A program made the position numbers and the translations under genes. A stretch of 64,000 nucleotides of DNA from Nitrososphaerota archaeon (GTDB lineage: Archaea > Thermoproteota > Nitrososphaeria > Nitrososphaerales > Gagatemarchaeaceae). The notes under the pieces were generated by a model. It did not search any database. It was not told where the DNA came from and saw only the letters and a list, made by a program, of their open reading frames with translations. Below, piece by piece: positions 24,914 through 47,951 of the stretch. The number at the start of each line of letters is the position of its first letter. Position 1 is the stretch's first letter. Location: NCBI GenBank assembly GCA_027887005.1, contig JAPCJI010000001.1:310001-374000 (forward strand), given 5' to 3'.

Positions 24914-25483
24914 ATGCTCGACAGGCTGAGGGGGCGACTCAAGACCTACTTCTGGGAGATCGGGAAGGCTTTCGCGACCCTGGGCCTCTCCCCGACGGGG
25001 TGGACCTCCGTCGGTCTGGTCGTCTCGTTCATCTGCGCAGCCGCCTACTGGACCGCAGGCCAAAGGGGGGAGCTCACCGCTGGGCTGCTTATCCTGCTGG
25101 CAGGGTTCCTCGACATAGTCGACGGAGCAGTGGCTCGGTTCACCGAGAGGATGTCGAAGAGAGGGGCGTTCCTCGATTCGACCCTTGACCGCGTGTCTGA
25201 GGTGGCAATCTTCCTGGGGATACTCGCCGGTGGCCTGGCGAGCCCCGTCGCCGTCGTACTCGCACTGTCGTTCAGCCTGCTGGTCAGCTACTCGCGCGCG
25301 AGGGGGGAGTCCCTAGGCACGAGCCTTTCTGGGGTCGGCATTGGGGAGCGGAGCGAGAGACTGCTCGTCCTCGCAGTTTCGTCCATTTTGGGCCTGGTCG
25401 GCTGGGGCGTGGTGCTGGTAGCGGTCTTGGCTCTCTTCACCTTCCTTGAGAGGACGGCGAGGGGAGCGATGAGCCTGAAGTAG
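24914..25483 (+). CDS. CDP-alcohol phosphatidyltransferase (archaetidylinositol phosphate synthase-like)
   Basis: The 189-residue membrane enzyme has a complete CDP-alcohol phosphotransferase motif: D67xxD70-G71xxA74-R75, then G84xxxD88xxxD92, which binds the metal ions and CDP-linked lipid. About five hydrophobic helices surround it. In archaea, family members of this length join CDP-archaeol with inositol-1-phosphate or glycerol-phosphate; the inositol reaction is the most likely but is inferred. It is followed by a membrane cyclophilin gene. Confidence 0.88.
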   Translation: MLDRLRGRLKTYFWEIGKAFATLGLSPTGWTSVGLVVSFICAAAYWTAGQRGELTAGLLILLAGFLDIVDGAVARFTERMSKRGAFLDSTLDRVSEVAIFLGILAGGLASPVAVVLALSFSLLVSYSRARGESLGTSLSGVGIGERSERLLVLAVSSILGLVGWGVVLVAVLALFTFLERTARGAMSLK

Positions 25484-26212: not shown

Positions 26213-26488
26213 CTACCAGTTTCGTCTTTCTGACGCCGCTCTGACCTTTACAATGCCGTAGTGGACGCTGCAGCTAATGCAGTAGTACCGCGTGGTGGTG
26301 GGGGAGGCGATGTACGCGCCCGCCGCTCTCAGCTCCCTTGCCAGGGTGGGTTCGACAAGCGACACCCGGGTTGTGACCTTCTTCGCCTTGTCTCGGGGAA
26401 CGGCAGCGCCGCAGTTGCTGCAGTAGATCAATCCTCCGCGCCCCTTCCCTCCCTTGGACCGTCCTCGGCTCTTTCTCTTCTTGGTCAA
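26213..26488 (-). CDS. rps26e: Small ribosomal subunit protein eS26
   Basis: This 91-residue basic protein has the eS26 pattern: a Lys/Arg/Gly-rich N-terminus, YCSNCGAAVPRDKA (CxxC at about 23-26) and a second pair in YYCISCSVHYGIVKVR (about 70-73), forming a zinc-binding fold near the mRNA exit channel. It is absent from most Euryarchaeota, so its presence supports a TACK-type genome. It is convergent with the cyclophilin gene. Confidence 0.92.
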   Translation of the reverse strand: MTKKRKSRGRSKGGKGRGGLIYCSNCGAAVPRDKAKKVTTRVSLVEPTLARELRAAGAYIASPTTTRYYCISCSVHYGIVKVRAASERRNW

Positions 26489-26538: not shown

Positions 26539-27471
26539 TTATTCTTTCTTGTAGGGGGTCGCGAGGGCAGTGGGGGGCCTCAGGCGCTTCGAAGCGATGG
26601 CCAGCACCGCCACCGTGAGGACGTAGGGTATCGTGCTGAAGAGGAAGAAGACAGGCCCGGTGGTCGCGACAACAGTGGTAAGGCCTATGCTCGCCCCGAA
26701 GATGAGCCCCGTGGCCAGTACGTAGGTGGGGTTCCAGCCGCCCGCTATCACAGCTGCGATTGCGATGAACCCGATTCCCGCGGTCGCGTTCCGTGTGTAG
26801 GAGTCGAAAAGGTCCACGGTCAGGTAGGAGCCCGCGAGGCCCAGGAGGACCCCCCCCAGAGACGTGGCGAGAATCCTCGTCCTGGCGACCCCGATTCCTG
26901 CCACCTCTGCGGCCTTGGGATTCTCCCCCACGGCCCTGATGTGGAGGCCGAACTTGGTCTTGGAAAGCAAGAGGTAGGTCAGGAGTGGGAGGACGAACAT
27001 CAGTATGGTCAGGGGGCTTATCCCGATGGAGAGGTTGGAGGAGATGTTGTGGATCACGAAGACAGGGGGGATCGTGTTGGAGACGGGCGTTGTGCCGTTG
27101 ATCCGCGACCCAAGTATCTGCTTGGCCGATAGAACGTAGATGATCCCCAGCGCGAAGATGTTGATGCCGATGCCTGCGATAACCTGGTCCACGTGGGCTT
27201 TGGTGCTAAGGAACGCGAAGACGAAGTTCATTGCGACGCCGGTGGCGACGCCAATGATCAGAGGCAGGTAGGGGTTCGCGATCCCGAGGATGAGCTGGAA
27301 GTAGACGTTGGAGAGGGCGGCTGTAAAGGATGCCATCAGCATGACCCCCTCGATTCCTATGTTCAGGATGCCCGATTTCTCAGTAATCAGCTCCCCCTGG
27401 GCGGCGATTGAAATCGTGGTGGCGTACTGGAGCCCGAAGACGGCGACCAGGAGAACCGGGGCTAGGTCCAT
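26539..27471 (-). CDS. Nucleoside-type ABC transporter permease (second permease)
   Basis: The 310-residue protein has about eight to nine hydrophobic helices and the permease family pattern (GILNIGIEGVMLMASFTA near residue 34; AVGENPKAAEVAGIGVARTRI near residue 177). It is homologous to the second permease of the BMP-binding-protein-dependent nucleoside importers (NupQ/YufQ class). The 5' end overlaps the first permease gene by 10 bases, showing translational coupling. It is the distal gene of the four-gene operon: binding protein, ATPase, permease, permease. Confidence 0.92.
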   Translation of the reverse strand: MDLAPVLLVAVFGLQYATTISIAAQGELITEKSGILNIGIEGVMLMASFTAALSNVYFQLILGIANPYLPLIIGVATGVAMNFVFAFLSTKAHVDQVIAGIGINIFALGIIYVLSAKQILGSRINGTTPVSNTIPPVFVIHNISSNLSIGISPLTILMFVLPLLTYLLLSKTKFGLHIRAVGENPKAAEVAGIGVARTRILATSLGGVLLGLAGSYLTVDLFDSYTRNATAGIGFIAIAAVIAGGWNPTYVLATGLIFGASIGLTTVVATTGPVFFLFSTIPYVLTVAVLAIASKRLRPPTALATPYKKE

Positions 27472-28529
27472 TTCCTTCTCCTGCCCGCCTTGAGTATTAC
27501 GGTGCTGATGTGAGGCATCGACATGAAGACGATTATTATTCCCTGCATCGCCCAGATGACGTAGACGTTGAGGCCGCTCGCCCCCACGCTGGCCGACCCG
27601 GCCACGAGGACGCTGAAGAAGATGGCGGAGAAGATCGCACCGATCGGGTTCGAGGCCGCCACCAGGGCAACCGCGATTCCCGCGAACCCCTCACCGCCGA
27701 ACCATCCGGCGGCGAACCCCACCTGATAGCATGCCGAGGACCCGCACGAGTGCCCAGCGGCCAGGACGTCCCCGGCCCCCGCCAGTCCTGCGACTAGGCC
27801 TCCGATGACCATCGCGATGACCTTGGTCCTCCGCGGGTTCACCCCCTTGGCTTCGGCCGGGTGCGGACCCAACCCGGTAGCGCGGATCTTGTACCCTAGG
27901 GTCGTCCCCCGGAAGAAGTACTCAGTCCCTATGGCGACAACAACCGCGACGATAATCATTATCGATGTCGTGAAGAAGGGAAGGCTGGGGATGGAGGCCA
28001 GGGGAGGTATGGCGGCCGTGTTGTAGAGCCGGGCCTTGGGCTGGGCGTCCACTATGATGCTGAGGAAGAGCGCAGCCGAAATCGCCTCGCCGACGAAGTT
28101 CAGCATGATCGTGGTCACTATGGCCGAGGCGTTGCGATAGGCTTCGAGGATTCCGGGGATGAAGGCCCAGAACGCCCCCACCAGCATGGCAGCCATGACG
28201 GCAACGAGGGGCCAGATAATGAACGGGAGAGGGAAGACTACTGCGACTATGGTGGCCACCGCCCCGGCCATGAAGATCTGTCCCTGGGCACCGACGTTCC
28301 AGATGCCCGCCTTGCCTGGGATCAGGAATGCGAGGGCCGAGAGGATCAGGGTCCCGGTGTAGGTCAGGACGTAGGACTGACCGTCGCGGTTGCCCAACGC
28401 CCCGTTCACCAGGGTCCCGTAGACCTCGAGGGGGTTGTAGCCCACGATAAGCATCAGAATCGAGGCAGCGAGGAGACCGAGCAGAAGGACCAGGACCTGG
28501 GGGACGCTGGCCCTCAGGGCCTTGACCAC
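27462..28529 (-). CDS. Nucleoside-type ABC transporter permease (first permease)
   Basis: The 355-residue protein has about nine to ten membrane segments. It contains the GKAGIWNVGAQGQIFMAGA segment (about 71-89) and ATGLGPHPAEAKGVNPRRTKVIA (about 216-238), the conserved permease features of the NupP/YufP group. It forms the membrane channel as a heterodimer with the adjacent permease. Confidence 0.92.
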   Translation of the reverse strand: MVKALRASVPQVLVLLLGLLAASILMLIVGYNPLEVYGTLVNGALGNRDGQSYVLTYTGTLILSALAFLIPGKAGIWNVGAQGQIFMAGAVATIVAVVFPLPFIIWPLVAVMAAMLVGAFWAFIPGILEAYRNASAIVTTIMLNFVGEAISAALFLSIIVDAQPKARLYNTAAIPPLASIPSLPFFTTSIMIIVAVVVAIGTEYFFRGTTLGYKIRATGLGPHPAEAKGVNPRRTKVIAMVIGGLVAGLAGAGDVLAAGHSCGSSACYQVGFAAGWFGGEGFAGIAVALVAASNPIGAIFSAIFFSVLVAGSASVGASGLNVYVIWAMQGIIIVFMSMPHISTVILKAGRRRKWT

Positions 28530-28549
28530 CCGGCCCTCGGACCGGGCGG

Positions 28550-30067
28550 TCAGACTGCTATCCCGCCCAGTAGCTTGCCCAAGTCTCCTATGCTCGCTCC
28601 GCGTTCCAGCTCCCCGATTATCTTCCCCTCGTAGAGCACCAGTATCCTGTCGCTCAGGTCGAGGGTCTCGTCAAAGTCCGCGCTCACCAGCAGGACGCCC
28701 CTCCCCTCGTTCCTGGCCTCGACAAGGAGGGACTGGATGTACTCGGTGCTCGCCACGTCCAGGCCCCGGGTGGGCTGGTGGGCGATGAGGAGGTGAGGGC
28801 CCCCCGAAAGCTCTCTCCCCACTATCACCTTTTGCTGGTTGCCCCCCGAGAGGTTCCTGGCTTTTACTTCGACCCCTGGGGTGGCCACGCTGAAAGTCTT
28901 GACGATTCCCCTGGCGAACTCTCTGACCTTCGCGAGGGAGAGGAGGCCCGAGCTTGAGAAGCGCGGCTCGTCGACCCGCCCCAGAACTGTGTTCTCTGCT
29001 ATCGAGAAGTCCAGGACGAGGCCGCTCAGGGCCCGGTCCTCGGGGACGTGGCCCACCGAGAGGTCGAGGATCTGCTTCGGAGCGAGGGCGTTGGTGCTAT
29101 GGCCGTTGATCGAAATGGTGCCCGAGACGGGCCTGTTCATGCCGGTGATCGCCTCGATGAGCTCAGACTGACCGTTCCCCTCAACCCCTGCCAGGCCCAC
29201 GATCTCGCCCGCCCTCACCTTGAACGAGCAGTTCTGGACAGCCCTCGGCTTGTTCGGGGTCGAGACCACGAGGTCTTTCACTTCGAGCAGGTCCTCCCCG
29301 GGCTGACGGTCGACGAACTTGAACTTCCGCTCCACGTCCCTGCCCACCATCATGTTGGCGAGGATGTCGAAGGCCGCGTCCTTGGTGTCGATGGTCCCAA
29401 CGACCTTCCCCTTGCGCATGACCGTGATGCGGTTGGAGAGGGCGATGACCTCCTTCAGTTTGTGGGTGATGAAGATGACAGTGGTGCCGGCGCCCGCCAG
29501 CTTCCGCACGGCCTTGAAGAGCTCATCCGCCTCGAGGGGGGTGAGGACGGCCGTCGGCTCGTCGAGGATAAGGACCCTAGCTCCCCTGAAGAGTGCCTTC
29601 AGTATCTCGACGCGCTGCTTGAACCCCGTGGGAAGGTTCTCCACGAGCTCGTCCTGGTCGATGGGGAGCCCGGTCTCCTGAACAAGCTTGGTCACCCTGG
29701 CGTTCGCTCCGGCTGCGTCTAGAATTCCCAGCCTCGAGGGCTCGGCGCCCAGGATGATGTTCTCTCTTACCGTGAGGTTCGGGACCAGGGTGAAAGCCTG
29801 GTGGACCATCCCGATGCCGAGGGATATCGCGTCGCGAGAGCTTCTTATCTTCGCGGGGACTCCGTCGATTGAAATCGAGCCGCCGTCCATCCGGTAGAGC
29901 CCGTAGAGGACGCTCATGAGGGTGCTCTTCCCAGCACCATTTTCCCCAAGGAGGCCCATGACCTCTCCCTTGGAGACGCTGAAGTCCACGCCGTCCACCG
30001 CGACGACACCGGGGAACTCCTTCCTGATCCCAGACATCGAGACCATCGTCTGGGGCACGTTAATCAC
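28550..30067 (-). CDS. Nucleoside-type ABC transporter ATP-binding protein (duplicated ATPase)
   Basis: The 505-residue protein holds two ATPase domains in tandem. The first has a full Walker A (GENGAGKST, about 42) and Walker B with VLILDEPTAVLT, but a degenerate signature (LPTGFKQRVE). The second has a degenerate Walker A (GVEGNGQSE, about 291) and a strong signature (LSGGNQQKVIV) with LIAHQPTRGLD in place of the usual DEPT. This split of intact motifs is normal for sugar/nucleoside importers of this type. Confidence 0.94.
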   Translation of the reverse strand: MINVPQTMVSMSGIRKEFPGVVAVDGVDFSVSKGEVMGLLGENGAGKSTLMSVLYGLYRMDGGSISIDGVPAKIRSSRDAISLGIGMVHQAFTLVPNLTVRENIILGAEPSRLGILDAAGANARVTKLVQETGLPIDQDELVENLPTGFKQRVEILKALFRGARVLILDEPTAVLTPLEADELFKAVRKLAGAGTTVIFITHKLKEVIALSNRITVMRKGKVVGTIDTKDAAFDILANMMVGRDVERKFKFVDRQPGEDLLEVKDLVVSTPNKPRAVQNCSFKVRAGEIVGLAGVEGNGQSELIEAITGMNRPVSGTISINGHSTNALAPKQILDLSVGHVPEDRALSGLVLDFSIAENTVLGRVDEPRFSSSGLLSLAKVREFARGIVKTFSVATPGVEVKARNLSGGNQQKVIVGRELSGGPHLLIAHQPTRGLDVASTEYIQSLLVEARNEGRGVLLVSADFDETLDLSDRILVLYEGKIIGELERGASIGDLGKLLGGIAV

Positions 30068-30105
30068 AAAAATGGGAAATAGGTGAGCAATCTACTCACC
30101 TAGTT

Positions 30106-31386
30106 CTAGGTTGGGGAATCGTTGTAGTTTTCTGGGATTACGATGGTTCCGTTAAGGATGCCGCGCGTGATCTGGGTCAGTATGTTCTTGGCCGCTGGTG
30201 TAAGGTACTGGCTCGAGTACTGGAAGGGCGTTGGTCCGACTGCGCCCTGGGCGAGGCCCAGTTGCAGTACGTTGCGCACGTGGCAGGGCTGGTCGCCTGT
30301 CGTGCCGCAGAGGGTCGTGGACCCGCTGAAGTAGCCGCCGCCGAACGTGGCTGCGTCGTTCCAATAGTTGGAGTAATTGCCGTATACCACCGACTGCATG
30401 ACCTTGAAGACTCCGAAGTCCACCTTCTTTATTTCAGAAGTGAGGACGAAGGAGGGCGCGCTGAAGGTGGAGGAGTTCTTGACGAAGAACCCGTAGGTTC
30501 CGTAGTAGTCCTGGTTCGCATCGACTCCGATGCCGAAGACTGGCGGCTTTGCAGATGTGAAGTTCCAGCCCTGCTGGATGTCATACTGCCCGACGGCCTT
30601 GAGTCCACCGATGCCGGTTCCGCCTGCGACCATGAATACTATGTCAGCTCCCTGCGAGATGAATGATTGGGTGATGCGTTGGCCTCCAGCCGGATCGCTG
30701 AAGCCCACACTGAAGTCTGTGCTGTCAAACTGCTTGAGCAATGTGACGTTCTTGTGGAGATAGTTGGAGGCCCATACCGCGCCGGCCTTCCAACCGTTCC
30801 AGAACTTGTAGATGATCGAGAAGGGTACCCCGCCGAGGAATGCTATCTTGTTCGTGTTCGTCATGGCCACCGAGAGCGCCCCTACTATCGCGCTACCAGT
30901 GTGTTCGGTGAACTTGATTGCTATGACGTTCGTCAGGTTATAGATGTCACCGTCGACCTGGGCGAACTTCTGGTTCGGATACTTCGCCGCTTCCTGGGCG
31001 ATGGTTGGGTCCATGTTGAACCCGACTCCGACCACGAGGTTAACGTGCTTCGCTATGATAGCCTCAAAGTCTGAGGTGTAGTCGTTGGAGCTGGCGGCCA
31101 CTACATAGTGGGTGTCGACACCAAGAGTGGTGTTGGCCTGCGACATTCCCTGGAAAGCCAGGTCGTTGAAGCCGCGGTCACCCAGCCCTCCGACGTCGAA
31201 GATTACGCCGATGGACATCCCCTTGCCGGGGAGCGGTCCTGCGGTCGTGGTGGTGGTTGGAGTGGTTGTGGTCTTTGTGCCCGTTGAGGAGATGAAGTAA
31301 TACGCCACTGCGGCAGCTAGCAACAGGACGATTATGACTGAGACGCCGATTGTTGTGCTAATCCCATTTCTAGAATGAACGTTCAA
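30106..31386 (-). CDS. BMP-family nucleoside-binding protein of the ABC importer
   Basis: The 426-residue product has a short basic start, one hydrophobic anchor (about 12-32), a Thr/Ser/Pro-rich linker (about 33-50) and a periplasmic-binding-type domain. Near residue 57 the domain starts GVIFDVGGLGDRGFNDLAFQG, the signature of PnrA/BmpA basic membrane proteins that bind purine or other nucleosides. There is no lipobox Cys; the anchor is a transmembrane helix, as is common in archaea. It has its own TATA element, and the operon continues into the ATPase and two permeases. Confidence 0.93.
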   Translation of the reverse strand: MNVHSRNGISTTIGVSVIIVLLLAAAVAYYFISSTGTKTTTTPTTTTTAGPLPGKGMSIGVIFDVGGLGDRGFNDLAFQGMSQANTTLGVDTHYVVAASSNDYTSDFEAIIAKHVNLVVGVGFNMDPTIAQEAAKYPNQKFAQVDGDIYNLTNVIAIKFTEHTGSAIVGALSVAMTNTNKIAFLGGVPFSIIYKFWNGWKAGAVWASNYLHKNVTLLKQFDSTDFSVGFSDPAGGQRITQSFISQGADIVFMVAGGTGIGGLKAVGQYDIQQGWNFTSAKPPVFGIGVDANQDYYGTYGFFVKNSSTFSAPSFVLTSEIKKVDFGVFKVMQSVVYGNYSNYWNDAATFGGGYFSGSTTLCGTTGDQPCHVRNVLQLGLAQGAVGPTPFQYSSQYLTPAAKNILTQITRGILNGTIVIPENYNDSPT

Positions 31387-31415
31387 ATTGTTCTCGCAGC
31401 CCTCCTCGCGTTTGG

Positions 31416-31425
31416 TTATTTAAAC
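31416..31425 (-). promoter_or_regulatory. TATA box of the nucleoside importer operon
   Basis: GTTTAAATAA on the minus strand, about 34 bases before the ATG at 31386, in the divergent gap shared with a PfkB kinase gene. Confidence 0.6.
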
Positions 31426-31476
31426 GAGCCACGAAAAAAGTCGGCCGATTGCGCTCTGTGTGTGAATGGGCGGAAG

Positions 31477-31486
31477 TATTCTTAAG
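31477..31486 (+). promoter_or_regulatory. TATA box of the PfkB kinase gene
   Basis: TATTCTTAAG is centred about 31 bases before the ATG at 31513, predicting an almost leaderless transcript. Confidence 0.5.
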
Positions 31487-31512
31487 ACGAGTTCGGCTGA
31501 CGCGGCCTCGGA

Positions 31513-32418
31513 ATGAAGGTGCTGGTCGCAGGATTCATCACCATCGACTCGATTCAGCTCCCCATGAGACTGATAACGTCGGTCGGGGGCCCCCCCTGCT
31601 ACGCTGGTCTGATCTGTTCCAGGTTCGGCCTGGACGTGACTCCCCTTACCAGGGTGGGGAACGACTTCCCCGAGGAGCAGGCGGTGTGGCTGGCGCGGAA
31701 CGGGATATCCCTGCGGGCGGGTGACAGGAGCTTCCTGAAGCCGACAACGAAGTTCAGCATAGCCGAGGGCGTGGGGAGCCGGACCCTGACCCTGGTACAC
31801 AGGTGCGAGGACCTTTCAGTTTCACAGATTCCTCCAAACATAAGGTTCAGCGCCGCCCTGGTCAGCCCGATAGCAGGGGAGGTGTCCACGTCACTGTTGA
31901 CAGAGATTTCGGCGCGCTCCGACTTCACTTTCCTCGACCCCCAGGGGTTCGTGAGGAGCTTCGATTCTAAGGGGACCGTGTCCGTCGCCCCCATCCAGGA
32001 CAAGAGCATACTCTCGAAGGTGGACGCCATCAAGATGGACCGGAGCGAAGCGGAGGCGCTGACGGGGAAGGCGAACCCGAAGGAAGCGCTCGAGAAGATC
32101 GCGGCCATAGGCCTTCGGAAGGCCGTCGTGACCCAGGGGGCCGACTCCTGTTTCGTCCTTGACGGGGCACGCATCTACGAGATCAAGGTCCCCCGCGCAC
32201 AGGTGGTCGACAGCACCGGGGCCGGGGACATCTTGAGCGGTGCCACCGTCAGCTGGTACCTGAAGACCAGGGACTTCCTCCGCAGCGCCTGCTTCGGAAT
32301 CGCCGCGTCTTCCCTCTCCCTTCACATGATCGCCCTGGCAAAGGTTGACCTGCCCATGAGCGTTGATGACAGCGCTATGAGGCTCTACTCCCTGGCGAGC
32401 CCCGTGGCCGTCGTCTGA
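31513..32418 (+). CDS. PfkB-family carbohydrate/nucleoside kinase
   Basis: The 301-residue kinase has the ribokinase-fold N-terminal glycine region (VGGPPCYAGLICSRFGLD, about 24-41) and the C-terminal catalytic signature VDSTGAGDILSG (about 233-244) with the Asp base. The substrate-binding lid is short. It is divergent from the nucleoside importer, so nucleoside or ribose phosphorylation after uptake is a reasonable inference. The 3' end overlaps the convergent second kinase gene by 44 bases. Confidence 0.88.
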   Translation: MKVLVAGFITIDSIQLPMRLITSVGGPPCYAGLICSRFGLDVTPLTRVGNDFPEEQAVWLARNGISLRAGDRSFLKPTTKFSIAEGVGSRTLTLVHRCEDLSVSQIPPNIRFSAALVSPIAGEVSTSLLTEISARSDFTFLDPQGFVRSFDSKGTVSVAPIQDKSILSKVDAIKMDRSEAEALTGKANPKEALEKIAAIGLRKAVVTQGADSCFVLDGARIYEIKVPRAQVVDSTGAGDILSGATVSWYLKTRDFLRSACFGIAASSLSLHMIALAKVDLPMSVDDSAMRLYSLASPVAVV

Positions 32419-33382
32419 GCTCCCCCAGTGCCCCCATCGAATCCTCCAGCTCCTTAGCACCGGGGCTCCCCCGGGTCTCGTACCTGGCGGCTTTCAGGGC
32501 CCCCGCGAGGTTCGCCCAGGAGGCAGCCTCCTCCACAGTCTTGCCCCAAGTGAGATAGGACGCAAGAACGCCGAGGAACGCGTCCCCGGAGCCGGTGCTG
32601 TTCACCGCCCTGAGGCCGAGCGCGGCCAGGTCGACTCCCTCAAGCACGGTCTTGACGGTCCCCCTGGAGACTACGCATCCTTTTGCCCCGAGCGTCACCA
32701 CCACGGTCACCCGGGGGAAGGCGTTCGAGAGCGCCTCGAGGGAAGGGTCTTCGGCCTCAAGGCCGGCCAGGTTCTTCAGCTCGCTGGAGTCCACGACCAG
32801 GATATCCGCCCGACGGATCACCGGCCCGATCCTCCTGAGCCCTTCCTGAGCCCTTACCCCCGGGCTGTAGACGACCCTGCACCATCGCTCCTTGGCTCGG
32901 CTGACCGCGGCGAGGGCCACGCTCGTGGGAGGGTCCATAACGACTATCATCGAGCTTCTGGAGACCAGCCTCGCCACGTTTTCCTTCGCAAGGTGAGCGG
33001 GAGTCAACTCCCCGTTGGCCCCGAATTGGGTGTGGATGGTCTTCCTCCCCCTCTCGTCGACGACTATGTACGCCATCCCCGACCGGCTGCCCGTCAGGGT
33101 CGACACTCCGCCCGTCAGAACACCTTCAGCGCGGAGCCCGGCAAGCTGCCTTTCAGAGACGTCGTCATCGCCAAGGGCCCCGACAAGGCTGACCCGTCCG
33201 GCGCCGAGGACCCTCGCGGCCGCCACGGCTACGTTCGCCCCCTTGCCGCCGGGGTATTCCTCCACGAGTCTAGCTTGGACCTCCTCTCCCACTCGAGGGA
33301 AACGATCTTCGAAGATTGTGACGTCCCAGTTTATCGCACCTATGACGGACAGGAAGCCGCGCCCCGGCGCTCTGGTCTCCAA
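32375..33382 (-). CDS. Ribokinase-like PfkB-family kinase
   Basis: The 335-residue kinase is closer to ribokinase/adenosine kinase, with NWDVTIFEDRFPRVGEE and YPGGKGANVAVAAARVL (about 43-59) and the catalytic VNSTGSGDAFLGVLASY (about 256-272). It phosphorylates ribose, a nucleoside or a similar sugar; specificity cannot be read from the sequence. Next to it is a second PfkB kinase and a nucleoside importer. The extreme C-terminus is Arg/Gly/Ser-rich and lies within the overlap with the opposite gene. Confidence 0.88.
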   Translation of the reverse strand: METRAPGRGFLSVIGAINWDVTIFEDRFPRVGEEVQARLVEEYPGGKGANVAVAAARVLGAGRVSLVGALGDDDVSERQLAGLRAEGVLTGGVSTLTGSRSGMAYIVVDERGRKTIHTQFGANGELTPAHLAKENVARLVSRSSMIVVMDPPTSVALAAVSRAKERWCRVVYSPGVRAQEGLRRIGPVIRRADILVVDSSELKNLAGLEAEDPSLEALSNAFPRVTVVVTLGAKGCVVSRGTVKTVLEGVDLAALGLRAVNSTGSGDAFLGVLASYLTWGKTVEEAASWANLAGALKAARYETRGSPGAKELEDSMGALGELRRRPRGSPGSRAS

Positions 33383-33404: not shown

Positions 33405-34850
33405 CTAGTAGGACTTCGCGTAATTGGCCGTAGACTCGGCCTTCTCCCCGCACGAGACACACTTCGCCTTAGGAGGCTTTTGGTCGAGGGGGATGCTCAG
33501 GATCTTCCCTCCTGCTCTGTCCTTCATCTTGTCTTCGCACGACTTCTTTCCACACCAGGCGACCCTCACGATCCCTCCCTTTCCAGCAATGAGACGTTCG
33601 AGCTCCTCCATCGAACCCGCCTCCACTGTGTGTGATTCCAGGAACGCCCTCGCCCTGGCGAGGAGGTTGGATTGGATGTCTCCCAACTCCTTGTCCACTT
33701 CCTTCCCGAGGAGGTCGATAGCCACGGTCCGCTTGGCCCCGGTGTCCCGTCTGACGAGCACGGCCTGTTTTGCCTTGAGGTCGCGCGGACCGAATTCAAT
33801 CCTCAGGGGGACCCCCCTGAGTTCCCACTCGTTGAACTTCCTGCCCGGCGTCAGGTGGTCTCGGTCATCCAGCCTGGTCCTCCAGCGGGCAGCGAGGTCC
33901 TTGGAAAAGGCCTTTGCCTCCTTGAGGATCGACTCCTTGTTTTCCTCGTTGACTATGGGCACCACCACGATCTGCAGGGCCGCGAGCTTCGGTGGGACGA
34001 CGGCGCCCTTGTCGTCGCTGTGGACGGCAAGCATGACCCCGATCTCCCTCGTCGAGATCGCCCAGGTGTTCTGCCATGCGAACTGCTTCTCCCCTTCCTC
34101 GTCGACGAACACGATGTCGAAGGCCTTCGAGAACCTCTGACCGTCGGAGTGGAAGTCCGGACCCTGAATCGCCTTGCCGTCGGGCAGAAGATGCTCGATG
34201 CTGTAGGTCGCCTCGGCTCCTGCGAACTTCTCGGAGTCGGTCTTCCTTCCAACCAGCCCTGGGAGCGCAAGATAGTCCTCGGTGACCATCCTGTAAATGC
34301 CCAGTATCTCGTCCCTCTCAGCGTCCGCCTCCTCCTTGGTGGCGAAGATCGTGTGCCCTTCGTTCCAGAGGAACTCCCTCGAGCGAAGGAAGGGGGTCGG
34401 GTGCTTGAACTCCCACCTGACGACGTTGTTCCACTGGTTCAGCCTCAGTGGCAGGTCCCTCCAGGACCTGATCCAGCGCTTCACCACCTCGTACATGACG
34501 GTCTCTGAGGTCGGCCTTACGGCAAGCCTCTCGTCGAGAGTGGACTTCCCCGCCTGGGTCACCCAGGCCACTTCGGGGGAGAAGCCCTTGACGTGCTCCG
34601 CCTCCTTCTTGAGCAGGCGTTCCGGGATGAAGAGCGGAAAGTAGGAATTCTGAATGCCGATCCGCTTGAACTCCGCGTCGGCGGCAGACTGGATGTTCTC
34701 CCAGATGGCGTAACCGGAGGGCCTGAAGACCATGCACCCCGAGACCGGACTGTAGTCTGCGACCTCCGACTTCAGGATGACCTGAGTGTACCACTCGTCG
34801 AAGTCCGTCCCCTTCTTCGCGGTCAGACCTTCTTGGCTCGCCTGAGACAT
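33405..34850 (-). CDS. proS: Prolyl-tRNA synthetase (archaeal/eukaryotic type)
   Basis: The 481-residue class II synthetase has FDEWYTQVILKSEVADYSPVSG at the start, RPTSETVMYEVVKRWIRSWRDLP (about 111-133), motif 2 around VVRWEFKHPTPFLRSREFLWNEGHT, an anticodon-binding domain, and the C-terminal zinc-binding domain (CGKKSCE, then CVSCGE) ending in a terminal Tyr as in archaeal ProRS. It lacks the bacterial editing insertion. A TATA element 28 bases upstream gives a leaderless mRNA. Confidence 0.96.
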   Translation of the reverse strand: MSQASQEGLTAKKGTDFDEWYTQVILKSEVADYSPVSGCMVFRPSGYAIWENIQSAADAEFKRIGIQNSYFPLFIPERLLKKEAEHVKGFSPEVAWVTQAGKSTLDERLAVRPTSETVMYEVVKRWIRSWRDLPLRLNQWNNVVRWEFKHPTPFLRSREFLWNEGHTIFATKEEADAERDEILGIYRMVTEDYLALPGLVGRKTDSEKFAGAEATYSIEHLLPDGKAIQGPDFHSDGQRFSKAFDIVFVDEEGEKQFAWQNTWAISTREIGVMLAVHSDDKGAVVPPKLAALQIVVVPIVNEENKESILKEAKAFSKDLAARWRTRLDDRDHLTPGRKFNEWELRGVPLRIEFGPRDLKAKQAVLVRRDTGAKRTVAIDLLGKEVDKELGDIQSNLLARARAFLESHTVEAGSMEELERLIAGKGGIVRVAWCGKKSCEDKMKDRAGGKILSIPLDQKPPKAKCVSCGEKAESTANYAKSY

Positions 34851-40798: not shown

Positions 40799-41449
40799 GT
40801 GCCTCGGCCCAAGGTCACAGTTATGGACCATCCGATGGTGATGGAGCAGCTGGCGCTCGCCCGGGACAGGCAGACGAACCAGGTGGCGTTCAGGAAGGCG
40901 ATATATCGATTGGGGCGCTTTATGGCCTATGAGTTCCTTAGGACCATGGAGACCCAGCAGGTCGAGTTGCAGACGCCCCTCGCCAAGTCCTCTGGAAGGA
41001 GACTAAAGGGGAAAGACAAGGTCGTGATCATCCTCGTCCTGAGGGCGGCGATTCCCTTTGTCGAAGGGATGTACAAGAATCTGCCCATGGCCAGGACCGG
41101 GGTGATAAGCGCCTGGCGCGGAAGGGCCCCGAACTTCCCCGTAGAAGTCCAGTACGCCAAGGTCCCAGAGATAAGGCGGGACGACGTCGTGATAATAGCC
41201 GACCCGATGCTTGCGACCGGTCACACCCTGGTGGAGGTTGCGAAGAAGGTAGCGGAAATGGGGAAGCCGAAGCGGCTGGCGTTCTTCTCGGTCATCTCCG
41301 CGATGCAGGGCATCGAATACGTGGCGAAGCACTTCCCCAAGGCTGAGTTCTACACCTGTGCCGTCGACCCGGAGCTCGACGACCATGGATACATCGTTCC
41401 CGGTCTGGGAGACGCGGGGGACAGGGCCTTCGGCGCCCCGACTAGGTAG
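40799..41449 (+). CDS. upp: Uracil phosphoribosyltransferase
   Basis: The 216-residue type I phosphoribosyltransferase converts uracil and PRPP to UMP. The PRPP loop is seen in VIIADPMLATGHT (about 131-143) and the uracil-binding C-terminus in CAVDPELDDHGYIVPGLGDAGDRAFG (about 183-208). It starts with GTG, leaderless from the shared TATA. It fits with the thymidine kinase, nucleoside phosphorylase and nucleoside importer also in the window. The 3' end overlaps the ligase gene by eight bases. Confidence 0.95.
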   Translation: MPRPKVTVMDHPMVMEQLALARDRQTNQVAFRKAIYRLGRFMAYEFLRTMETQQVELQTPLAKSSGRRLKGKDKVVIILVLRAAIPFVEGMYKNLPMARTGVISAWRGRAPNFPVEVQYAKVPEIRRDDVVIIADPMLATGHTLVEVAKKVAEMGKPKRLAFFSVISAMQGIEYVAKHFPKAEFYTCAVDPELDDHGYIVPGLGDAGDRAFGAPTR

Positions 41450-46550: not shown

Positions 46551-47117
46551 TTGACCCTCGAAGTCATCATCGGGCCAATGTTCTCGGGCAAGACCTCGGA
46601 GCTCATCAGGCTGGTGGAGAGGGAGGTCTACGCCAAAAGGAAGGGTGCCATCTTCAAGATAGCCTTCGACAAGAGATACAGCGCGCGCCAGGTGGTCACT
46701 CACAACGGGCTGAGGTACGACGCCTACACCGTGGCCTCCTCCGCGCACGGGCTGAAGAAGATAGAGGAGCTCGCCGGCCCTGACGGCCTCGACGCCATAG
46801 GTGTGGACGAGGTGAACTTCTTCCCCGAGGAGATCGTGGGACTTCTGGACAGGCTGGCCGACAAGAAGAAGGTCATCGCCTGCGGCCTCAACCTGAACTT
46901 CAGGGCCGAGCCCTTCCCGTCAACCATGGAGCTGGCGGCTAGGGCCGACAGGGTCAGGTATCTCAGCGCAGTGTGTGTCGTCTGCGGCCAAGAGGCGACG
47001 AGGACCCAGAGGCTCATAGGCGGGAAGCCGGCCCCGAAGGATTCTCCGGTCATTGTGGTTGGGGGCAAGGAGCTCTACGAACCGCGGTGCAGGAACTGCT
47101 ATGTCTCCCCTCGGTGA
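46551..47117 (+). CDS. tdk: Thymidine kinase (type II, tetrameric)
   Basis: The 188-residue kinase phosphorylates thymidine and deoxyuridine. It has a P-loop GPMFSGKTSEL (about 8-18), the DEVNFF motif (about 86), the lasso region SAVCVVCGQEATRTQRL with a CxxC pair, and the second CxxC (CRNCY near the C-terminus) for the structural zinc. It starts with TTG, leaderless. It shares the nucleoside salvage theme with the phosphorylase immediately downstream (63 bases). Confidence 0.93.
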   Translation: MTLEVIIGPMFSGKTSELIRLVEREVYAKRKGAIFKIAFDKRYSARQVVTHNGLRYDAYTVASSAHGLKKIEELAGPDGLDAIGVDEVNFFPEEIVGLLDRLADKKKVIACGLNLNFRAEPFPSTMELAARADRVRYLSAVCVVCGQEATRTQRLIGGKPAPKDSPVIVVGGKELYEPRCRNCYVSPR

Positions 47118-47180: not shown

Positions 47181-47951
47181 GTGACTCAAGAACCCCTGGA
47201 TGAAAAGGGGAGGCCGTATCACATCAGACTCGAGAAGAGGCAGGTCGGCAGCATCGCGTTCCTTCCGGGAGACCCGGCGAGAGTCGCAAGGATAGCCCAG
47301 AGGCTCACGCGCCCTGAGCAGCTCTCTTCGAACAGAGAGTTCACGGCCTACGGGGGTTACGTGGGGAAGGAGCGAATCGTCGTGATAAGCACTGGGATTG
47401 GAGGTCCGGCCACGGCGATTGTCGTGGAGGAGTTGGCAAGGCTTGGCGTCAGGACTATGATCCGAGTTGGTACCTGCGGAGCGATCACGAGCAGGGCGAA
47501 GGTCGGTTCTGTCATCATCGCGGACGCTGCTGTCAGGATGGACGGGACCAGCGCCCTCTACGTCCAGCGAGGATATCCGGCTGCAGCGACCCCTGGCATC
47601 GTAATGGCCCTTTCACATGCGGCAAGGAAGCTCAAGGTCCAGGGCACCGTCGGGATCGCGGCATCGACCGATTCCTTCTACGTGGGCCAGGGACGGAAGG
47701 GCTTCGGCGGCTACTTCCCACCCGAGAGCGCCGGGATTACGAAGCGGCTGCAGCAGGCCCGCGTGCTCTGTTTCGAGATGGAGGCCGCCACGCTCTTCAC
47801 TCTGGGAAGGCTCTTCGGCCTGCAGACTGGCGCCGTCTTCGCGGTCGTAGCCAATAGGGCGACCAACGAGTTCAAGCTGGGCTCAGGCATCGACGCGGCC
47901 ATCGACGTCGCAGTCGGTTCAGTCCGCCACTTCAAGAAGTACGGCGTCTGA
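47181..47951 (+). CDS. Nucleoside phosphorylase (uridine/purine phosphorylase family)
   Basis: The 256-residue NP-I enzyme has IAFLPGDPARVARIA (phosphate/ribose site, about 25-39), STGIGGPATAIVVEEL (about 70), IRVGTCGAI (about 94) and a C-terminal CFEMEAATLF ribose-binding motif (about 197). It cleaves a nucleoside with phosphate into base and ribose-1-phosphate. The pattern is nearest to uridine phosphorylase, which would feed the uracil phosphoribosyltransferase, but purine specificity is possible. GTG start; the 3' end overlaps the convergent mutase gene by 20 bases. Confidence 0.88.
   Translation: MTQEPLDEKGRPYHIRLEKRQVGSIAFLPGDPARVARIAQRLTRPEQLSSNREFTAYGGYVGKERIVVISTGIGGPATAIVVEELARLGVRTMIRVGTCGAITSRAKVGSVIIADAAVRMDGTSALYVQRGYPAAATPGIVMALSHAARKLKVQGTVGIAASTDSFYVGQGRKGFGGYFPPESAGITKRLQQARVLCFEMEAATLFTLGRLFGLQTGAVFAVVANRATNEFKLGSGIDAAIDVAVGSVRHFKKYGV

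Follow-up and report, generated by a model that had tools for sequence, protein, structure and literature searches.

Within a 64,000-nucleotide stretch of DNA (hereafter the window) from a Nitrososphaerota archaeon of the family Gagatemarchaeaceae (assembly GCA_027887005.1, contig JAPCJI010000001.1, positions 310,001 to 374,000), the segment 26539-33382 carries a four-gene BMP-type importer together with two PfkB-family kinase genes. We propose that these genes probably belong to two independent modules interleaved at one locus: nucleoside salvage, comprising the importer and a ribokinase-like kinase (K14), and inositol phosphorylation for lipids, comprising a shorter kinase and a nearby gene for an archaetidylinositol-phosphate-synthase-like protein (the synthase-like gene). 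Each ligand, substrate and product in this model is a prediction, drawn from gene content, residues, predicted folds, neighborhoods and co-occurrence. The family compared comprised 46 genomes, taken to be Gagatemarchaeaceae (soil Thaumarchaeota group I.1c), and the window genome itself is ~96% complete; genomes and loci are designated by G and L numbers, and publications cited by PMC number are represented by excerpts.

In the first module, the BMP protein would capture extracellular nucleosides, which the two permeases and the duplicated ATPase would bring into the cell; there they would be cleaved, in this organism most simply by a uridine-phosphorylase-like enzyme and in relatives by a nucleoside hydrolase, and K14 would phosphorylate the 5-hydroxyl of the released ribose unit (ribose or ribose-1-phosphate). 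In the second, the short kinase would phosphorylate free myo-inositol at O3, and the inositol phosphate would be coupled to CDP-archaeol by the neighboring synthase-like enzyme. An earlier note on this DNA had tentatively placed the importer and both kinases in a single nucleoside network; our analysis supports the link between importer and K14, whereas the short kinase points to a myo-inositol kinase. The genes of the locus are as follows.

24914-25483, plus strand: archaetidylinositol-phosphate-synthase-like CDP-alcohol phosphatidyltransferase (NF040950, 165.7 bits; cut-off 180)
26213-26488, minus strand: ribosomal protein S26e, a landmark that separates the transporter slot from the synthase-like gene (NF006816, 126.3 vs 118)
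26539-27471, minus strand: ATP-binding cassette (ABC) permease 1 of the BMP importer (PF02653, 127.8 bits; adjoins the ATPase and permease 2 in relatives)
27462-28529, minus strand: ABC permease 2 of the BMP importer (PF02653, BPD_transp_2, 87.2 bits)
28550-30067, minus strand: duplicated ABC ATPase (PF00005, ABC_tran, in two stretches, 171.4 bits)
30106-31386, minus strand: BMP/PnrA-type binding protein with predicted nucleoside ligand (PF02608, 110.0 bits)
31513-32418, plus strand: short PfkB kinase, predicted myo-inositol 3-kinase (PfkB, 75.2 bits; best match in PDB 3w4s/4xf6/4xf7)
32375-33382, minus strand: K14, ribokinase-like PfkB protein, predicted ribose or ribose-1-phosphate kinase (PfkB, 144.5 bits; TIGR02152, 164.7)
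33405-34850, minus strand: prolyl-tRNA synthetase, a landmark that bounds the locus on its far side (PF09180, PF00587, PF03129)

The segment 26539-33382 holds six open reading frames (ORFs), the four importer genes and the two PfkB genes, all with Pfam matches far above cut-off, which confirms the four-gene BMP importer with duplicated ATPase that had been claimed. The importer genes follow one another head to tail in the order binding protein, ATPase, permease 2, permease 1, with intervals of 38 and 20 bases and a single 10-base overlap (permease 1/permease 2). A 126-base gap separates the binding-protein gene from the divergent short kinase, and K14 converges on the short kinase, the 3' ends overlapping by 44 bases. 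The importer had been described as flanked by the two kinases; both are present, but they share one side, upstream of the binding-protein gene, while the other side is occupied by S26e, a peptidyl-prolyl isomerase and then the synthase-like gene, 0.7 kb from S26e. Scanning the window for Rfam families and tRNAs produced no matches.

The importer and its predicted ligand

A PF02608 protein, two BPD_transp_2 permeases and a duplicated ABC ATPase, encoded head to tail, make up an importer of the BMP/PnrA type. The cut-offs of the NCBIfam models for a putative B6 (BMP-type) ABC transporter (NF047927-NF047930) were all missed (44.1/400, 116.3/465, 119.5/400 and 439.3/670). By sequence, the nearest solved chains to the binding protein are Lbp, pneumococcal PnrA, an Aeropyrum protein (4pev), TmpC, BmpA and BmpD, a group described as nucleoside-binding relatives in PMC13325309. 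The same source gives the nucleoside pocket of BmpA/BmpD as Asp19, Asp24, Phe27, Asn28, Asp98, Phe151, Phe176, Val224, Asp225 and Lys242. When these positions were transferred by eye, using the PnrA alignment and residue spacing in place of BmpA's own letters, all 10 were found to be filled in the window protein (D64, D70, F73, N74, D145, F195, F229, V288, D289 and K320). Nine of the 10 are identical in 12/12 importer-linked orthologs, F229 being Trp in G033 and G051 (16 sequences counted), whereas in four BMP paralogs, one of which comes from the same genome as the window, the residues at positions 64, 73, 195, 229, 289 and 320 are all changed. Retention of the pocket in orthologs against change at 6/10 positions in paralogs argues that it is kept for nucleosides in the importer. 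Together with operon partners and co-occurrence, the pocket residues predict an importer that is very probably nucleoside-specific.

One nucleotide site of the ATPase is intact and the second is degenerate, with Gln at the Walker A Lys position and His-Gln in place of the Walker B Asp-Glu. The same division into one intact and one degenerate site is seen in the window and 10 relatives, the second Walker A carrying Gln in 11/11 and the Walker B being degenerate in 10/11. The NupDABC importer of Thermococcus kodakarensis (PMC12628685) and BmpA-NupABC of Lactococcus lactis likewise consist of a BMP protein, an ATPase and two permeases and have a nucleoside pocket, as far as the excerpts describe them. 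However, the N- and C-terminal regions of T. kodakarensis NupD are swapped relative to Treponema pallidum PnrA, whereas the window protein has the usual PnrA-type order, and the window importer genes, unlike NupDABC, sit among lipid and translation genes.

Relatives supply the operon partners. In G009 and G016 a nucleoside hydrolase gene follows permease 1 on the same strand, and in G033 the gene order is prolyl-tRNA synthetase, K14, short kinase, importer, ribose-1,5-bisphosphate (R15P) isomerase, phosphoribosyl pyrophosphate (PRPP) synthase, RuBisCO, S26e and synthase-like gene, the isomerase scoring 375.1 bits against a cut-off of 314.1. A second K14 copy in G018 adjoins RuBisCO III and R15P isomerase.

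Two side observations concern the binding-protein family. The N-terminus of the window protein (31270-31386) pairs a brief leader of RNGIST type with a hydrophobic segment, an arrangement that we take to resemble archaeal class III (pilin-like) signal peptides; by itself, this leader region matched many other proteins in relatives. In addition, a second BMP-family importer in the same genome (L149:8164-15204, G000:C3), with the pocket changed at 6/10 positions, adjoins AllH and AllG, which are oxamate-carbamoyltransferase subunits, and is a candidate ureide or oxalurate importer; BMP paralogs with identical pocket changes also occur in G016, G033 and G034.

K14 and the fate of the ribose unit

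Of the 46 genomes in the family, 11 have the importer (E <= 1e-20), 14 have the K14 subfamily (E <= 1e-45) and 10 have both (Fisher p 2.4e-6, a value that ignores relatedness and gene linkage); K14 is thus present in 10/11 importer genomes vs 4/35 others. In a tree of 99 kinases, from which L209, L248, L249 and L252 (too short) and 12 duplicate loci were left out, the Gagatemarchaeaceae K14 proteins form one clade (support 100/98) that includes Candidatus Gagatemarchaeum stordalenia. Neighborhoods were read for the best 80 of 298 relatives of the K14 subfamily, and in 38/80 of these a nucleoside hydrolase lies <=400 bases from the kinase (31 encoded on the kinase strand, 7 on the other); it lies further off in 3/80 and was undetected with three reference hydrolases in 39/80. 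Hydrolase-linked members among these 80 include Bathyarchaeota, Dehalococcoidia and Nitrososphaeria. A separate kinase paralog group adjoins hydrolases in 11/19 family loci read.

The predicted structure of K14 (predicted local distance difference test (pLDDT) 92.2) is closest to E. coli ribokinase, with Z 42.2 and a root-mean-square deviation of 1.6 over 300 residues. Compared with the E. coli and Thermus ribokinases, K14 has the same fold and the NxD, GGKGAN and GxGD motifs at 28-31% identity, but differs in its score, which lies under the NCBIfam cut-off, and at the E143 position, where Asp stands in the MAFFT alignment and Pro in a second alignment. NxD, GGKGAN and E143 have ribose-contact roles in E. 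coli ribokinase. Loss of E143 had been entertained as a mark of ribose-1-phosphate kinases and was dropped, the position aligning with Asp and hydrolase-linked members sharing it. In-frame stops in the K14 genes of four relatives proved to be the ordinary stop, within the last few residues (three seen; G018:C84 by ORF).

Co-occurrence and the hydrolase-linked subfamily thus support the placing of K14 in the importer's predicted nucleoside-salvage module. Co-occurrence, hydrolase neighbors and fold together suggest that K14 acts on the ribose unit of nucleosides, without separating ribose from ribose-1-phosphate, and the two-module model accommodates either substrate.

An ordinary ribokinase yielding ribose-5-phosphate has close to an even chance of being the right description. 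The top structural matches of K14 are ribokinases, NxD and GGKGAN are kept, with Asp at the E143 position in the MAFFT alignment, and hydrolases, which release free ribose, adjoin 38/80 of the best 80 of 298 subfamily loci. On the other hand, K14 scores below the ribokinase cut-off (TIGR02152, 164.7 vs 299.65 bits), the window genome is without a nucleoside hydrolase, and two relatives have the RuBisCO and R15P isomerase context.

That context, in G018 and G033, favors instead a ribose-1-phosphate kinase of the pentose bisphosphate pathway, a reading we regard as possible but somewhat doubtful. The phosphorylase encoded in the window would yield ribose-1-phosphate, and ATP-dependent ribose-1-phosphate kinases without R15P isomerase are known, Pcal_0041 being an example in the excerpt of PMC9700705. 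However, the score of K14 against the ribose-1-phosphate-kinase model (NF053626, 121.2 vs a cut-off of 330 bits) lies under its ribokinase score, the hydrolase-linked loci speak for free ribose, and the window genome is without RuBisCO and without an R15P isomerase over cut-off (best 217.5 bits vs 314.1).

Several of these observations weigh against the nucleoside module as proposed. K14 falls below both family cut-offs, and the fate of its product is unexplained in the window genome, given the absence there of hydrolase, of R15P isomerase over cut-off and of RuBisCO. Co-occurrence of the importer with hydrolase (7/11 family genomes, p 0.15) and of K14 with RuBisCO (2/14 family genomes, p 0.49) is non-significant. 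Importer and K14 are also separable: G016 has the importer without K14, and four family genomes have K14 without the importer. In two of these, G063 and G067, the K14 match positions are those of loci L176 and L177, with ornithine carbamoyltransferase and a TrpB-like protein as neighbors at L176; in G068 (match positions as L209) the contig ends soon past the short kinase, and in G069 K14 is at a contig edge. Among solved structures the nearest to the binding protein is Lbp, whose ligand was originally reported to be laminaribiose, although its crystal fits guanosine (PMC9601137, in excerpt).

At five Asgard-type loci, K14 relatives in Jordarchaeia, Freyarchaeota and Sigynarchaeota (L190, L194, L202, L206 and L211) directly precede an isomerase gene. 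At L190 this isomerase was rejected as R15P isomerase (186.8 vs 314.1); an MtnA-type model gives 279.9 vs 271, and MtnA 264 vs 279. By sequence the L190 isomerase is MtnA-like, and the two genes may form a kinase-isomerase pair acting on a ribose derivative. Among the matches listed, the open-licence literature yielded nothing usable on nucleosides in Gagatemarchaeaceae, on hydrolase-linked ribokinases or on the study behind PDB entry 7e4l.

The short kinase, the synthase-like gene and the transporter slot

The best sequence match of the short kinase in PDB is 3w4s, the T. kodakarensis myo-inositol 3-kinase (MI3K_TK), which we take to be TK2285. The predicted structure of the short kinase (pLDDT 95.4) matches 5ysq, 5ysp, 7e4l, 3w4s and 1vk4 at ranks 1-5 (Z 33.3-31.5), all of them inositol-phosphorylating kinases and 4/5 of them TM0415 or its mutant. 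The margin over what follows is small, with a nucleoside kinase (3kd6, rank 6) at Z 30.3 and ribokinase at 30.1. Residues add to this picture: the inositol contacts of MI3K_TK are D12, G26, Q136, R140 and D219 (PMC5931981, in excerpt), and the short kinase keeps all five, with D12 in 39/40 sequences and G26, Q144, R148 and D239 in 40/40. The motif DxQGhxR is found in 39/40 short kinases vs 0/99 kinases of the K14 set, and QGxxR in 39/40 vs 2/99, a control made up of K14-type kinases only and not of all PfkB families. Ile83 and Leu92 stand at the positions of L77 and L87 of MI3K_TK and are hydrophobic in 39/40; according to the title of PDB entry 7e4l, changing those two positions to Leu turns an inositol 1-kinase into a 3-kinase.

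The five acceptor contacts are common to the short kinase, the T. kodakarensis enzyme (3w4s, 4xf6, 4xf7) and the pyrophosphate (PPi)-dependent TM0415 (PMC5931981, in excerpt), at identities in structural alignment of 29% to 3w4s and 21% to TM0415. The short kinase differs from TM0415 in that the PPi motif RxGRGD occurs in 0/40 short kinases, and from both enzymes in having a lipid-synthase-like gene as neighbor. By contact residues, predicted structure and neighbors, the short kinase looks like a myo-inositol 3-kinase outside the nucleoside network. In five genomes (G049 Leu, G055 Met, G059 Ile, G043 Leu, G045 Val; L085, L088, L097, L098 and L099) the second residue of GxGD is bulky; this residue is small in ATP-type members, and the excerpt of PMC5931981 ties Ile/Leu there to ADP dependence.

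Distribution separates the short kinase from the importer. At E <= 1e-20 it is present in 45/61 genomes, compared with 12/61 for the importer at E <= 1e-25, and the earlier note's suggestion that separate histories would count against a common network holds for this kinase, the importer remaining associated with K14. Importer and K14 co-occur, and the short kinase is linked instead to the synthase-like gene. Neighborhoods were read for 39 relatives and the window, with G037, G044, G050, G056 and G058, which have strong kinase matches, outside the count. The synthase-like gene lies in the short kinase's stretch in 28/39 relatives and in the window (29/40), whether or not the importer stands between them; it was unseen in G012, G015, G016, G018, G019, G027, G034, G047, G049, G051 and G053, where several stretches or contigs stop early. 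The CDP-alcohol phosphatidyltransferase (CAPT) catalytic motif is present in the window protein and in 26/29 homologs from the 40 loci. Since short kinase and synthase-like gene stay paired in 29/40, importer or not, their pairing is more widespread than the importer here and probably older.

D-myo-inositol-3-phosphate and 1L-myo-inositol-1-phosphate are one compound. The latter is named as the headgroup precursor in the excerpt of PMC9385802. Among the open-licence papers listed, and in the excerpt of PMC9385802, we found none that connects an inositol kinase of archaea with the making of archaetidylinositol, which is weak evidence of novelty; the mentions of inositol in excerpts of the thaumarchaeal genome papers PMC7265257, PMC8397731 and PMC10773090 concern di-myo-inositol phosphate.

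The inositol assignment has its own counter-evidence. TM0415 has the same inositol contacts, yet its Km for inositol is 12 mM, and its authors leave the true acceptor open (PMC5931981, in excerpt). The synthase-like protein scores 14 bits under the NF040950 cut-off (165.7 vs 180), the next best model reaching 95.0. Inositol-1-phosphate-synthase homologs are found in 59/61 genomes, including that of the window; absence of the synthase, considered as support for inositol dependence, therefore failed as an argument, and with the synthase present the kinase would be a salvage branch, not required for the lipid precursor.

The slot beside the short kinase bears on whether the importer might instead carry myo-inositol to this kinase, relatives using other transporters in its place. 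In 25 family neighborhoods, window included, the slot holds the BMP importer in 10, a major facilitator superfamily (MFS) transporter in 6, a CUT1-like ABC transporter in 2, MFS and CUT1-like together in 1, and is empty in 5; the importer of G034 sits next to S26e on a separate contig. This exchange of MFS or CUT1-like transporters leaves some room for a role of the importer in inositol uptake. We nevertheless consider such a role improbable: the base-stacking Phe and ribose-contact residues of the pocket are kept, hydrolase follows the permease in G009 and G016, the RuBisCO route stands alongside in G033, and the presence of the importer tracks K14, not the short kinase. At L065, L071, L072 and L074-L079, all without the BMP importer, the MFS sugar-type or CUT1-like ABC transporters by the short kinase are themselves candidate inositol importers.

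Other salvage genes and wider meaning

The window encodes further nucleotide-salvage genes.

689-1336: weak and partial dCTP-deaminase match (46.8 vs 92.8 bits)
40799-41449, plus strand: uracil phosphoribosyltransferase (PF14681, 178 bits), a possible user of nucleoside-derived uracil
46551-47117, plus strand: thymidine kinase (NF003296, 219 vs cut-off 183), with a presumed link to the importer
47181-47951, plus strand: uridine-phosphorylase-like nucleoside phosphorylase (TIGR01718, 251.5 vs 280.3; PF01048, 120.6), likewise with a presumed link to the importer

Of the salvage genes that the earlier note had listed elsewhere in the window, the uracil phosphoribosyltransferase, thymidine kinase and phosphorylase genes are real, at distances of 9 to 16 kb to the importer; the dCTP-deaminase match is weak and partial. 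A single salvage network, with the short kinase as a nucleoside kinase beside importer and K14, draws on these genes, on the adjacency of all six genes and on the sixth-ranked nucleoside kinase 3kd6 (Z 30.3 vs 33.3 for the best), but is very unlikely, as five inositol-phosphorylating-kinase entries outrank 3kd6, the inositol contacts are kept and the short kinase stays paired with the synthase-like gene in importer-free genomes.

The two-module model distinguishes two PfkB kinases that annotation would both label "sugar kinase" and gives each its own pathway. It also offers an alternative view of a published cluster: the excerpt of PMC10640624 records rbcL of Gagatemarchaeaceae clustered with R15P isomerase and PRPP synthase in three topsoil genomes, an arrangement interpreted there as carbon fixation. 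The identical trio occurs in G033, but there the importer and K14 adjoin it, and because an importer and a ribose or ribose-1-phosphate kinase border the cluster, the context looks like nucleoside catabolism.

More tentatively, and with slightly less than even confidence, we suggest a broader scheme in which the pair of kinase and synthase-like gene would be ancestral and order-wide in these Nitrososphaeria (including G057, taken as Nitrososphaeraceae), giving an unrecognized route from free soil inositol to membrane lipid, in which the slot beside the kinase would be a hot spot of importer insertion and the G033 RuBisCO would be nucleoside-degrading, not carbon-fixing. If true, the pairing of short kinase and synthase-like gene would mean inositol salvage for lipid headgroups in Nitrososphaeria, and with it a source of their inositol lipids.

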